IMG/VR virus record: IMGVR_UViG_3300009703_000131
Location: 1-21,430 of that record
DNA: 21,430 bases
Direction: 5' to 3' (one strand)
Origin: a virus
In this document: piece after piece, positions 4,750-12,123 of the stretch
How the letters are laid out: each line of letters starts with the position of its first letter
How positions within the stretch are numbered: position 1 is the stretch's first letter
The notes under the pieces: generated by a model
Seen by the model: only the letters and a program-made list of their open reading frames with translations
What the model was told of the DNA's origin: nothing
Databases searched by the model: none
Position numbers and translations under genes: made by a program

Positions 4750-4755
4750 TATTTA
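4750..4755 (-). promoter_or_regulatory. T4-late-like promoter for the small membrane-protein gene
   Basis: Minus strand GACTAAATAATTATGCT then ATG, spacing 8 nt. The first three bases of the core are the TAA stop codon of the lysine-dehydrogenase-like gene (4753-4755). Confidence 0.65.
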
Positions 4756-5838
4756 GTCTTTTAAGAGACTATTTAATATATTATTGAAGTCTGTATATGG
4801 CACATCAGAATACCCAAGAGCCATTGGTAATTTAATGTCACCGCCCCTGTTTTGCTTAATTCTCTTATCGAATACCTTCGTTCCCATAAGAGATCCTACT
4901 GTACTTATGGAAAACGCTGTAGCTTTTTGCATCGCAGAAAATTTATCACAGCTACGTACGATTTTTTCGTAAGTTCTAGTAGTATCCCCCGCAGTAACGT
5001 CTGATCTTAATATAACTAGGTCAGAATCGTTCTTGTCCCCGGAGCAACCGGTTTCGAAAACCTTTTTCATAGTGTCAGAATCTAATTTACAATCGTTATG
5101 TAGAAATTTAACAATGTCAATGTGACCTGGATATCTAAATGTCTTATAAGAACAGTTTTTAACGCCACGATTCTTCATACTCATTAATGTATGCGACACT
5201 CCACCTGATGTATAAAAGGCTTCCAGTTCACCTAACCCTGTATTTACATTTACAAGGCCTGACATACCCTTAACAGTAACTAATTTACCACCTCTTAGTA
5301 CCAAACAATCATCAACATATTCATTGATCAATCCATCTATTGACCATGTTACCATATAATTCATTACATTACGTTTTACTACAGGTAACCCACCGACGTA
5401 CATGTTAATGTTATCTATATTAGATAGCCCACACGCTAAATGTTCCGTAACAATGTTAATCCATCCAGGAGCAAGGCCTAGATCTGTAAATACCGGTGCT
5501 GTTGCCTTCTCTTTTGCAAATTGATTAATTTCTTCAGATACATCAACTCGCCCACCAAGGTCGCAGTACCGTATATTGTTTGTTATACAATATTTGGCAA
5601 CAGGTAGCAATTGATGATAAGGTAAACTGCATACAACGATATCTGGGTCTGTGTCTCGAAGCAATTTCTTAAACGACTTGTCGGATTTCAAATGTACAAA
5701 CGTATAGTCTTTAACAAGACCCTTAAGTTTGTATTCTGCAGGAACTACATCGGCACATATAAGTTTATATCCAAGTTTATTCATTGCATATGCAATGCAT
5801 TGACCCATCCTACCTAATCCAAATACGACAGCTTTCAT
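4753..5838 (-). CDS. Lysine 6-dehydrogenase-like enzyme (saccharopine dehydrogenase family)
   Basis: A 361-residue NAD(P)-dependent oxidoreductase. A Rossmann GxGxxG (G7-L-G9-R-M-G12) is followed by D30 at the end of strand 2, which favours NAD. Family landmarks follow: CDLGG (92-96), DLGLAPGWIN (119-128), YVGGLPV (147-153), LEAFYTSGG (205-213) and YKTFRYPGH (231-239). They fit lysine 6-dehydrogenase, which oxidises the epsilon-amino group of lysine to allysine (2-aminoadipate semialdehyde, cyclising to piperideine-6-carboxylate), better than the longer saccharopine reductases. Relatives such as carboxynorspermidine dehydrogenase remain possible. I prefer ATG at 5838 over a TTG six bases upstream because it lies 10 nt from a late-promoter core and starts directly at the MKAVVFG strand. 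An aldehyde dehydrogenase that could take the product lies just upstream. Confidence 0.75.
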   Translation of the reverse strand: MKAVVFGLGRMGQCIAYAMNKLGYKLICADVVPAEYKLKGLVKDYTFVHLKSDKSFKKLLRDTDPDIVVCSLPYHQLLPVAKYCITNNIRYCDLGGRVDVSEEINQFAKEKATAPVFTDLGLAPGWINIVTEHLACGLSNIDNINMYVGGLPVVKRNVMNYMVTWSIDGLINEYVDDCLVLRGGKLVTVKGMSGLVNVNTGLGELEAFYTSGGVSHTLMSMKNRGVKNCSYKTFRYPGHIDIVKFLHNDCKLDSDTMKKVFETGCSGDKNDSDLVILRSDVTAGDTTRTYEKIVRSCDKFSAMQKATAFSISTVGSLMGTKVFDKRIKQNRGGDIKLPMALGYSDVPYTDFNNILNSLLKD

Positions 5839-5847
5839 TATCAATTT

Positions 5848-7368
5848 TTATTTAGACATACCTTGAGGAAATGCTATATCTTCTCCATGGTTAACAGTCC
5901 ATGACATTGTATGAGTTACAGCTTGCCAGGTTTTAGCTGCAGACGGAAAGCCATTACCGCTCTTCTTTACTCCTCCAAACGATAAGTGGCTTTCCGCTGC
6001 AATGGATCCTCCATTCCAGTAACACATACCAGTATCGCAGTTATCTCTACAGTAACGTGCAATGCGGTAATTGTTAGTTAGAATGCCAACTGCCAATCCA
6101 TACTCTGTATCATTATAAATTCTTACCCCATCCTCTACAGTATCAAACGGTATTAATGCAACGTGAGGACCAAACACTTCATTTCTAAGATAAGGAGCAT
6201 CACACCCGCGCCATTCAACCTTATATACCGTTGGTGTAACATAATAAGTACCATTTTCGCCAGTATATTCCGGTGATAATAATACTTCAGCTTGAGTGTC
6301 TCTTAATACATGGTCATTATAACTTCGAACTTTTGCAAATCCTTGCTCATTAATAATAGGGCCGTAGTACATATCTTCATTTACTGACCCATCTTTATTA
6401 AACGGATTACCTGTCTTTATTTCTTTAGCTTTTGCAGCGAACTTCTCACAAAACTCATCATATACACTTCGCTGTACAATCATTCTACCAGATGATACAC
6501 AACGCTGACCAGATAACTTAAATGCACTAGCGATAGCTGCATCTACTGCCATATCGATATCAGCATCATCAAAAACAATACAGGCAGATTTACTACCCAT
6601 TTCACAACTAGTTGTTTTATGCCAGCTTTCAGCAGCTACTTTACGAATTAACTGACCTACTTCAGCACTACCGGTAAAGCAAATATGATCCACACCGGCT
6701 CTACAAAGCCAGTCACCTGTTTCACCTTTACCGTGAACAACATTCATAACACCAGCTGGTAAGCCTGCATCATGATAAATCTGCATTGCCAGATGTGTAG
6801 ATAATGGAGCATCTTCCGAAGGTTTAACGACAACTGTATTGCCTTCAACTAACGCCGGTGCTGCGTTCCAAAACATTCCAATAGCTAGCGGGAAATTAAA
6901 CGGAGTAACAATTGCAATAACACCTTTTGGTTTGCGAACCATATATGAATCTTTTTCTGGTAGTTCAGATGATACAATATCACCTGTTGGTGTCCTTCCC
7001 GAACCAAAAGCAAATTGAGCCATGTGTAAAGCTTCGTTTACTTCAGCAATAGATTCGTTATAGTTCTTGCCTGTTTCTTTAGAAATAGCAGTTGCGAGAG
7101 AAACCTTACGCTGTTCAACAAGTGTTGCAACATTATTAAGTATTTCTGCTCGTTCAAGCCTACTCTTTGATTTCCATTCTGTAAAAGCAACTTTTGCACA
7201 ATTAACTGCTACTAATACTTCGTCTTGTGTCGACAACGGAAATGTACCTAACACTTCCCCAGTAGCAGGGTTAATATTGTTGTATTCTTCAGTTGTGAAA
7301 TCCGCTCCCTCAACGCCAATACGGTGATGAATGAATTCTCCGTTTATGTAATTTCCGTAATCTGTCAT
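5848..7368 (-). CDS. NAD(P)-dependent aldehyde dehydrogenase
   Basis: A 506-residue full-length ALDH-superfamily enzyme that oxidises aldehydes to carboxylates. All key residues are present: oxyanion N158 in TPFNFP, cofactor-binding K182 in VVKPSE, GSAEVG at 233-238, general base E256, nucleophile C290 in SGQRCVSSGR, and E397 in NEVFGP. One oddity is CEMGSK at 255-260, where most family members have ELGGK; the catalytic Glu is kept. Next to a lysine 6-dehydrogenase-like gene, the likely substrate is 2-aminoadipate semialdehyde, giving 2-aminoadipate, but the motifs alone do not fix the substrate and succinate- or betaine-type aldehydes are possible. The ATG overlaps the stop of the upstream VOC gene (ATGA), and the next gene starts 9 nt after its stop, so the three are one operon. 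Confidence 0.93.
   Translation of the reverse strand: MTDYGNYINGEFIHHRIGVEGADFTTEEYNNINPATGEVLGTFPLSTQDEVLVAVNCAKVAFTEWKSKSRLERAEILNNVATLVEQRKVSLATAISKETGKNYNESIAEVNEALHMAQFAFGSGRTPTGDIVSSELPEKDSYMVRKPKGVIAIVTPFNFPLAIGMFWNAAPALVEGNTVVVKPSEDAPLSTHLAMQIYHDAGLPAGVMNVVHGKGETGDWLCRAGVDHICFTGSAEVGQLIRKVAAESWHKTTSCEMGSKSACIVFDDADIDMAVDAAIASAFKLSGQRCVSSGRMIVQRSVYDEFCEKFAAKAKEIKTGNPFNKDGSVNEDMYYGPIINEQGFAKVRSYNDHVLRDTQAEVLLSPEYTGENGTYYVTPTVYKVEWRGCDAPYLRNEVFGPHVALIPFDTVEDGVRIYNDTEYGLAVGILTNNYRIARYCRDNCDTGMCYWNGGSIAAESHLSFGGVKKSGNGFPSAAKTWQAVTHTMSWTVNHGEDIAFPQGMSK
5849..5854 (-). promoter_or_regulatory. T4-late-like promoter before the lysine-dehydrogenase-like gene
   Basis: Minus strand TCTAAATAAAAATTGATA then ATG at 5838; the core is 10 nt upstream. 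It lies inside the last codons of the ALDH gene, whose TAA stop overlaps it. It could give the third cassette gene extra late transcription. Confidence 0.5.
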
Positions 7369-7922
7369 GATAATTCTTTTGTACTGTTCATTAAATCTTT
7401 AACATTATCTTCACAAAAACCGTCACCTTCTCGCGAGATTAATTCGTAGATAACACCGGTTAGTTCAGAAGGTTTTGTGAATACTTGAATAAGGCCCGGG
7501 CATGTCATAGGCTCTTCAGAAAGGAACTCGGCATATCCTTTTTCTTTCCATTCGTTCATAGTTTGTGCCACATTATCACACTGATAAGCAATATGATGAA
7601 TGCCGCCCACCCCGCCGCGAGCAGCAACCCAATCACCAACAATAGATCCCACAGGACCATCACTAACAAAGATTTCACACGGTGCATGTAATGAAATATC
7701 TTCCTCTTCATAATCTTCTAAACATAAAGTTGTAAATTGAGACCATTCTTTAGTTTCTCTTGGTCGCTTTTCTGGTGGAACCAAAGCTAAGCAGTCTGCT
7801 TTTGAGCCGTCATCGAATTCTATTTGAAATTCCGTACCAATGGTATATCCTAAAGCCGCTTTTAAGAATTCAGCTGTCTTATATCTGTCTTTAACTCTAT
7901 ACGCGATATGATCCAGTCTCAT
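7365..7922 (-). CDS. VOC-superfamily (glyoxalase/dioxygenase fold) metalloenzyme
   Basis: A 185-residue protein with the vicinal-oxygen-chelate pattern. LDHIAYRV opens module one (metal ligand H5). GGIHHIAYQC at 106-115 opens module two (ligand H109 or H110), and GVIYELI at 156-162 supplies the terminal Glu (E160). VOC enzymes include methylmalonyl-CoA epimerases, glyoxalases and hydroxyphenylpyruvate-type dioxygenases. The length is above single epimerases (about 140) and below full dioxygenases (350 or more), so the reaction cannot be named. A Cys-rich C-terminus (GDGFCEDNVKDLM) follows. It is the first gene of the operon with ALDH and the lysine-dehydrogenase-like enzyme, so it may act on an intermediate or side product of that path. 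No clear TAAATA precedes its ATG; TAATATATCTTA directly before it may be a variant. Confidence 0.8.
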   Translation of the reverse strand: MRLDHIAYRVKDRYKTAEFLKAALGYTIGTEFQIEFDDGSKADCLALVPPEKRPRETKEWSQFTTLCLEDYEEEDISLHAPCEIFVSDGPVGSIVGDWVAARGGVGGIHHIAYQCDNVAQTMNEWKEKGYAEFLSEEPMTCPGLIQVFTKPSELTGVIYELISREGDGFCEDNVKDLMNSTKELS

Positions 7923-7956
7923 TAAGATATATTAGCTTCATGCGCCGCAAAATCAA

Positions 7957-7962
7957 TAAATA
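7957..7962 (+). promoter_or_regulatory. T4-late-like promoter for the metallothionein-like gene
   Basis: Plus strand TCAATAAATATAAGT then ATG at 7968, with only 5 nt between core and start codon. It lies in the 45-bp gap between divergent genes. Confidence 0.65.
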
Positions 7963-7967
7963 TAAGT

Positions 7968-8132
7968 ATGAGCCAAGATACAGAATGTACATGTAATTGT
8001 GGACCTACTCCAGGTCCATGGGGTCCAGGTCAGGGATGCTGTGATTGTAAATGTCAGCATTGTAAGCACTGCAGCGAAGATTGCGCTTGTGAGTGTCACG
8101 ATGAAGACTCGAAAGATAGTAAATGTTTATAA
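7968..8132 (+). CDS. Metallothionein-like cysteine-rich mini-protein
   Basis: A 54-residue protein. It has 13 cysteines (7, 9, 11, 24, 25, 27, 29, 32, 35, 39, 41, 43, 53) and histidines at 31, 34 and 44. The order is a CTCNC cluster, a Gly/Pro/Trp hinge (GPTPGPWGPGQG, 12-23), the dense cluster CCDCKCQHCKHC (24-35), then CACECH (39-44) and an acidic/Lys tail ending KCL. Repeated Cys-x-Cys and Cys-x-x-Cys spacings are the hallmark of metallothioneins, which bind Zn, Cu or Cd as thiolate clusters. It is not obviously colinear with cyanobacterial SmtA. The late promoter 5 nt upstream and the neighbouring 8145 gene, with its own promoter overlapping this stop, support a real gene. Metal buffering or delivery late in infection is inference; a redox or structural role is also possible. 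Confidence 0.72.
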   Translation: MSQDTECTCNCGPTPGPWGPGQGCCDCKCQHCKHCSEDCACECHDEDSKDSKCL

Positions 8133-8133
8133 A

Positions 8134-8139
8134 TAAATA
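8134..8139 (+). promoter_or_regulatory. T4-late-like promoter (tandem TAAATA) for the 8145 gene
   Basis: Plus strand TATAAATAAATATAGAT then ATG at 8145. Two overlapping TAAATA cores lie at 8130-8135 and 8134-8139; the first is a full T4-like TATAAATA octamer (8128-8135) and begins with the upstream gene's TAA stop. Spacing from the second core to ATG is 5 nt. Confidence 0.7.
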
Positions 8140-8144
8140 TAGAT

Positions 8145-8423
8145 ATGCATAACGAACACGATTTAATCTGGGAGAGCTACCAGAAAGTTAATGAGAACAT
8201 ACCTTTGCAGTCGCAACAAGGGCTTGATCTTCACAAGCAATTAAAGCCATTAATATATGCTGTTAGAACATATCGTGATGCTGGTGTTCGTGACGACAAC
8301 GCAGTAAGTGTACATGTAAATGATTTGCTCAAACAAGGTGTGCCTCATGAGAACATTAAGCATGTACTTAGTCAAGCTTATTCAGAAGAAGATATAGCTG
8401 GTTTTCTTAATCTTCAGCGGTAG
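8145..8423 (+). CDS. Small helical phage protein of unknown function
   Basis: A 92-residue protein starting MHNEHDLIWESYQKVNE. It is soluble and mostly helical. The second half (about 40-90) alternates short helices with Gly/Pro turns (VNDLLKQGVPHENIKHVLSQAYSEEDIAGFL), like a small helical bundle. No enzyme motif is seen and I do not recognise a family. It has a strong late promoter of its own. The last 17 nt overlap the end of the convergent lipoprotein gene on the other strand. Confidence 0.7.
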   Translation: MHNEHDLIWESYQKVNENIPLQSQQGLDLHKQLKPLIYAVRTYRDAGVRDDNAVSVHVNDLLKQGVPHENIKHVLSQAYSEEDIAGFLNLQR

Positions 8424-12090: not shown

Positions 12091-12117
12091 CTCTATAAAA
12101 ATTGTTGTCAGATACAA

Positions 12118-12123
12118 TAAATA
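12118..12123 (+). promoter_or_regulatory. T4-late-like promoter for the tail sheath gene
   Basis: Plus strand ACAATAAATAATTACGACT then ATG at 12133, 9 nt from core to start and no Shine-Dalgarno. The ACAATAAATAATTAC string is identical to that of the 725 minus-strand promoter. Confidence 0.75.

Follow-up and report, generated by a model that had tools for sequence, protein, structure and literature searches.

The window analysed here, a virus record of 21,430 bases taken at its full length, carries T4-like terminase, tail sheath, and neck genes, and since its terminase shares at best approximately 39% identity with cultivated-phage terminases (e.g., that of Sinorhizobium phage phiM9), the lineage is an uncultured one. 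A short, extremely Cys-rich frame in this window raises the question of whether such a phage encodes a metallothionein of its own, as an earlier note on this DNA had proposed. The plus-strand frame at positions 7968–8132 is translated as MSQDTECTCNCGPTPGPWGPGQGCCDCKCQHCKHCSEDCACECHDEDSKDSKCL; it comprises 54 codons with 13 Cys (24%) and 3 His, as that note had counted. These 16 potential ligands within 54 residues occur in CxCxC, CC, CxxC, and HCxHC spacings, and CxC, CxxC, and HCxHC arrays at such a ligand density are the hallmark composition of metallothioneins. The features of the locus are as follows.

7365..7922, minus strand: divergent gene of the VOC superfamily (Glyoxalase_4), with weak similarity to methylmalonyl-CoA epimerase.
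7955..7962, plus strand: T4-type late-promoter-like box AATAAATA, ending 5 nt upstream of the ATG, with one mismatch to TATAAATA.
7968..8132, plus strand: metallothionein-like gene (54 amino acids, 13 Cys and 3 His), from translation, sister-lineage comparison, and randomisation.
7983..8000, plus strand: N-terminal box ECTCNC, residues 6–11 (Cys 7, 9, and 11), identical in the sister protein.
8001..8030, plus strand: invariant hinge GPTPGPWGPG, residues 12–21 (7 of 10 codons synonymously changed, none replaced).
8031..8099, plus strand: C-terminal ligand cluster CC.C.C.HC.HC...C.C.CH, residues 22–44, with 9 Cys and 3 His, all retained in the sister protein.
8100..8132, plus strand: variable acidic/Lys tail that includes Cys 53 (replacements at 7 of 10 residues in the sister protein).
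8128..8135, plus strand: exact late-promoter box TATAAATA for the next gene (ATG at 8145), overlapping the stop codon at 8130–8132.
8145..8423, plus strand: neighbouring gene of 92 amino acids, of which only the N-terminal DLIWESYQ is shared with the L001 counterpart.

The GPTPGPWGPG stretch separates a 3-Cys box from a Cys/His-rich part. The hinge that the earlier note had described is therefore present, but the two parts on either side of it are unequal, with 3 Cys on its N-terminal side and 10 on its C-terminal side, and with only three Cys the N-terminal box could not form a classical multi-metal cluster by itself.

When the whole window was randomised 1000 times with a first-order Markov (dinucleotide) model and the most Cys-rich frame of at least 40 amino acids was scored each time, the top frames had a median Cys content of 11% and a maximum of 20%, and 24% was reached in none of the 1000 sequences. 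When 2.9 million viral contigs were scanned with a peptide pattern, an ortholog was found in two IMG/VR contigs (L001 and L002), which are 99.6% identical and represent one sister lineage; a scan with the pattern HCxHC...CxCxCH returned the sister contigs together with one antisense (GSS)n repeat. The ortholog, MDSECTCNCGPTPGPWGPGCKCCGCRCQHCKHCNDGCKCECHEEEPKNKCCIGIEEGEIQ, lies as in the window, with the VOC gene on one side and the gp17 block on the other. The window protein and its ortholog are 54–60 amino acids long with 13–15 Cys (24–25%), and are about 67% identical at approximately 27% nucleotide divergence. All 16 Cys and His of the window protein (13 of 13 Cys and 3 of 3 His) were retained in the sister protein, where residue 22 is a further Cys, whereas only 19 of the 36 other residues were retained (hypergeometric P = 3.9e-4); this and the other conservation statistics represent one comparison of two independent lineages and are correspondingly thin. 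Within the hinge, seven of the ten codons had changed silently and none by replacement, whereas the remaining non-ligand residues were kept at only 9 of 26 positions (P about 4e-4 by direct count).

The nucleotide differences between the two lineages were distributed 9/10/29 over the first, second, and third codon positions of the Cys frame, with a dN of 0.24 and a saturated dS. Two overlapping frames with GTG starts (7999–8136 on the plus strand and 7953–8099 on the minus strand) compete with the Cys frame and were judged weaker because this distribution fits coding in the Cys frame. Since the frame, its start, its promoter spacing, and its ligands were kept while the nucleotides diverged by approximately 27% and third positions changed silently, the pattern of substitution indicates that the 54–60-amino-acid frame is a genuine, selectively kept gene. 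The same comparison shows strict selection on all 13 Cys and 3 His, and likewise on the Gly/Pro/Trp turn. The claim that this is a real phage gene is thereby borne out by an ortholog at the same place in a sister lineage, and the Cys pattern, whose loss in related phages the earlier note had named as grounds for abandoning the idea, was preserved in full.

The box AATAAATA lies 5 nt upstream of the ATG, as had been claimed, and L001 has the box CATAAATA with an identical 5-nt gap. The late motif reported for marine T4-like phages is NATAAATA (PMC2984593), and AATAAATA, together with the spacing in L001, represents a box of this type at a promoter-like distance. The only exact copy of TATAAATA within the window is at 8128–8135, 9 nt ahead of the ATG at 8145; because it covers the stop codon, the overlap of the stop with the next promoter also holds. 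Going by the predicted promoter box, the best reading is that the Cys-rich gene is a late gene of a T4-like phage. In T4 late promoters, a 5-nt gap places +1 at or beside the ATG, so that, with the transcription start site extrapolated from T4, the mRNA would lack a leader; by this analogy, the transcript of the Cys-rich gene is probably leaderless. TAAATA was found in the 40 nt upstream of 9 of the 17 long genes in the window (within 10 nt in eight, and at 23 nt in one more), where chance alone would give about 0.02–0.04 per gene over those 40 nt. The cores lay about 5–6 or 9–10 nt before the ATG (e.g., the boxes at 735–742, 764–771, 7955–7962, 8128–8135, and 12116–12123), and the arrangement was similar in relatives. 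TAAATA close to the ATG thus appears to be a general trait of this phage group, for which leaderless or almost leaderless late mRNAs would follow from T4 geometry.

Although the Cys-rich composition and the conserved ligands bear out the description of the protein as metallothionein-like, membership in a metallothionein family found no support in profile or sequence searches. With membership of PF02069 defined as a profile match above 33 bits, neither the window protein nor its ortholog matched, nor did anything in the whole records, whereas the control SmtA matched at 1.5e-20. The Cys-rich protein matched no family in Pfam, NCBIfam, or PHROG, including zinc-finger families. Among the PDB sequences, no metallothionein was matched by the window protein or by the two-row profile, whereas SmtA retrieved 1jjd and 6gv6/6gv7 and human MT2 retrieved many metallothionein chains. 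Membership of PF02069 or of another metallothionein family was rejected on these grounds, the profile and PDB searches being negative while the controls worked. The alignment scores of the Cys-rich protein to SmtA and human MT2 were within or near those of shuffled sequences. With MymT, among six comparisons made, the L001 protein scored above all but 0–0.6% of the shuffles and the window protein did not. Because MymT itself lies outside every Pfam family, a negative Pfam result is compatible with a metallothionein. A tblastn search of cultivated phages gave no match and was uninformative, because the low-complexity (SEG) filter loses even the known ortholog; a DNA search of the same collection returned only short chance matches. 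Matching the Cys spacing against viral contigs returned antisense or out-of-frame simple repeats and chance peptides among the matches listed, PGPWGPG was found in bacterial genomes only as chance peptides, and a literature search with limited coverage of subscription journals found no paper on a phage-encoded metallothionein. Metallothioneins are broadly defined (PMC7387436) as proteins of <10 kDa with a very high Cys content and CxC/CxxC arrays, and the phage protein has these properties (54–60 amino acids, 24–25% Cys), as well as a Cys pattern selectively conserved in two lineages (P = 3.9e-4). Its sequence suggests that it may work like a metallothionein; its membership in a named family is not supported.

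SmtA and BmtA (PF02069) resemble the phage protein in being small (~54–56 amino acids) and Cys/His-rich, and the SmtA control sequence has a ligand set similar to the C-terminal 9 Cys and 3 His found here. However, the phage protein differs from them in its Cys spacing, its larger number of Cys (13–15), its CxCxC boxes, and its conserved Gly/Pro/Trp hinge, and it lacks a YCxxxCA-type motif, just as its gene lacks an adjacent SmtB-type repressor. The mycobacterial copper metallothionein MymT is likewise small, CxC-rich, and without a Pfam family, and can be weakly aligned (CGCR...HC...C.C), but it has fewer Cys and no hinge, and credible homology to the phage protein is lacking. Vertebrate MT2 is also Cys-rich, with CxC/CxxC runs and a linker connecting two Cys-rich parts, but it has 20 Cys and no His, in contrast to 13 Cys and 3 His, and its linker has no conserved Pro or Trp; the alignment score of the window protein to MT2 fell inside the shuffled range. 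The single Trp of the phage protein is in the hinge and is invariant across the proteins of both lineages; a Trp in this position is atypical for classical metallothioneins, although bacterial metallothioneins do have a few aromatic residues. YdaE of the Rac prophage is reported (PMC6892955, citing Blindauer 2002) to be a short zinc-binding SmtA-like protein, and to that extent it is a (pro)phage-encoded counterpart; it differs in its weakly SmtA-like sequence and in belonging to a cryptic prophage, and it is not a T4-like late gene. A true PF02069 member, annotated as a hypothetical protein, was found in the record deposited as 'Microcystis phage MaAM05' (MW495066.1, 111775–111996; L070, 2998–3219). 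This is a metallothionein in a phage-deposited record, but its sequence is unrelated to that of the Cys-rich protein; because the record also has bacterial fliM, fabI, and engB, its phage nature is doubtful, and it may be bacterial or mis-assembled.

The distribution of the gene was examined in 59 terminase-anchored viral loci and 79 VOC loci. The VOC frame starts at 7922 and is divergent, 45 nt from the Cys-rich gene, in agreement with the earlier note, and its product shows conserved His/Glu residues, as would be expected for a metal site. The next relatives (L005, L006, L007, and L010–L012), with terminases 72–77% identical, have the VOC gene, mostly adjoining an aldehyde dehydrogenase (ALDH) gene, and lack the Cys-rich gene. 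Across the 79 viral VOC loci, a Cys-rich neighbour was seen in no contigs but the two from the sister lineage; approximately 75 others, including those of the closest relatives with the VOC–ALDH cassette, had none. In 24 whole records, the Cys-rich gene was found nowhere outside the sister lineage, and the two-row profile, searched without a positive control, matched none of 20 further records, including cultivated T4-like phages. The search beside VOC/ALDH in related phages that the earlier note had suggested thus favoured no link: in the nearest relatives with the same VOC position, L005–L007 and L012, the slot is filled differently (in L012, by an unrelated small ORF plus a conserved ~80-nt stretch). 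As judged from this synteny, the Cys-rich gene is a lineage-specific accessory passenger, carried in a variable slot next to the terminase gene, and its proximity to the VOC gene is therefore no evidence of a functional link.

Several observations concern the slot and its surroundings in their own right. The conserved ~80-nt stretch (GTCAACCTAGATGTAGTGTGAGCTTGCA...TAGGAGG..CCGG...CATTTAGGTTGAC) is present at L005 735–845, L006 560–668, L007 2085–2190, and L012 7885–8000 (minus strand, upstream of VOC), in the place that the Cys-rich gene occupies in the window and L001. It folds as a long hairpin (consensus −31 kcal/mol, with one compensatory pair in four sequences); no match was obtained when the slot was scanned with Rfam and for tRNAs, and the stretch is possibly an RNA element. 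The slot ORFs (window 8145–8423, L001 8172–8576, L002 1483–1887, and L012 8022–8393) share only the N-terminal motif DLIWESYQ / NLIFEAYL. Between L001 and L002, a stretch of ~150 bases in the 5′ half of the ORF held 22 differences, with none elsewhere nearby; this gene is possibly diversifying or recombining, and has a putative capsid-targeting leader. The VOC–ALDH cassette (window 4753–7922, minus strand) recurs in dozens of viral contigs (L193–L270), several of which have a saccharopine-dehydrogenase-like gene after it; records several hundred kb long contain the VOC gene as well.

We regard it as fairly probable that this uncultured T4-like phage makes, late in infection, a cytosolic, reduced, metallothionein-like protein that holds Zn and/or Cu(I) in a thiolate cluster and serves as a putative metal buffer or store. 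A metal–thiolate cluster is suggested by the 16 conserved potential ligands and their CxCxC, CC, CxxC, and HCxHC spacings, and the N-terminal box, with just three Cys, probably combines with the Cys9His3 part at the C-terminus. The Pro/Gly/Trp turn would fold the N-terminal CxCxC onto this cluster, and the 13 thiolates and up to three imidazoles could together bind about four Zn(II) ions, or a larger number of Cu(I). With less assurance, the late-made protein might buffer or store Zn/Cu during the turnover of host metalloproteins, keeping free metal from harming late phage protein synthesis and assembly, and its thiols might quench oxidants late in infection. AlphaFold, run on the two-sequence alignment and with no metal, gave a mean pLDDT of 50 and no confident fold; this is uninformative for a protein that would need metal to fold, and apo-metallothioneins are expected to be disordered.

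Other explanations account for parts of this evidence. The hinge is conserved as strictly as the ligands, beyond the needs of a passive linker, and CQHCKHC and the CxxxC pairs are compatible with zinc-binding knuckles, so the protein could be a compact zinc-finger-like adaptor in which one or two structural Zn sites (CxxC/HCxHC) display the PGPWGPG surface to a host or phage protein, with no metal buffering; YdaE, reported as a short zinc-binding prophage protein (PMC6892955), offers a precedent. We consider this unlikely, because the 13 Cys in 54 residues, with their CxCxC and CC runs all retained, exceed the needs of one or two structural sites, and no zinc-finger family was matched. A role as a thiol/redox protein, in which the Cys would act as a reductant sink or form disulfides (under late oxidative stress or in an exported disulfide-rich peptide) and metal would be incidental, is suggested by the high thiol density and by the fact that metallothioneins also scavenge reactive oxygen (PMC7387436). 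However, CxC pairs and adjacent CC are unfavourable to ordinary disulfide folds, no signal peptide was seen at the N-terminus (MSQDTECTC), and the retention of all three His beside Cys points to metal ligands, which together make this reading quite improbable.

The position of the gene among structural genes, with a late-type promoter, would also suit a capsid- or virion-associated late protein that brings metal into the particle or supplies it to virion metalloproteins, and the next gene and the slot ORFs of relatives begin with the hydrophobic–acidic motif DLIWESYQ / NLIFEAYL, which we take to resemble a capsid-targeting leader. The metallothionein-like protein itself has no such N-terminal motif, however, and close relatives with the same virion genes lack the gene, so that it is dispensable for assembly; the chances of a virion role are accordingly slim. 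The cooperation with the VOC enzyme proposed in the earlier note, as its metal donor or partner, rested on divergent genes 45 bp apart and on the His/Glu residues, but a Cys-rich neighbour is confined to two sister-lineage contigs of 79 VOC loci and the VOC–ALDH–SDH cassette is inherited without it; rejected by the synteny of these loci and of the relatives' cassettes, the partnership is hardly conceivable. A chance Cys-rich frame with no gene would explain why the frame is short, belongs to no database family, and occurs in two lineages only. It is equally hard to credit against a frame, start, promoter spacing, and ligands kept despite ~27% nucleotide divergence, third positions having changed silently, and was rejected on the basis of the sister-lineage conservation, the codon pattern, and the 0 of 1000 randomisations.

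A metallothionein-like thiolate-cluster protein, lineage-restricted and in an unusual place, thus represents the best, though unproven, reading of these sequences. More tentatively, lytic T4-like marine phages may have invented or captured a metallothionein family that is unrelated in sequence to the cellular ones, expressed late from a probably leaderless mRNA, with its CxCxC box folded onto Cys9His3 via PGPWGPG, and providing a Zn/Cu store of their own during virion production. Genes of this kind are missed, because profile libraries all fail and the low-complexity filter of tblastn hides even an ortholog of about 67% identity; a search with the filter off could tell whether marine phages commonly carry small, Cys-rich late genes. 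The phage side of metal handling in infection is almost unexplored, and if the protein binds several metals, a lytic phage would bring its own metal buffer to the infection.
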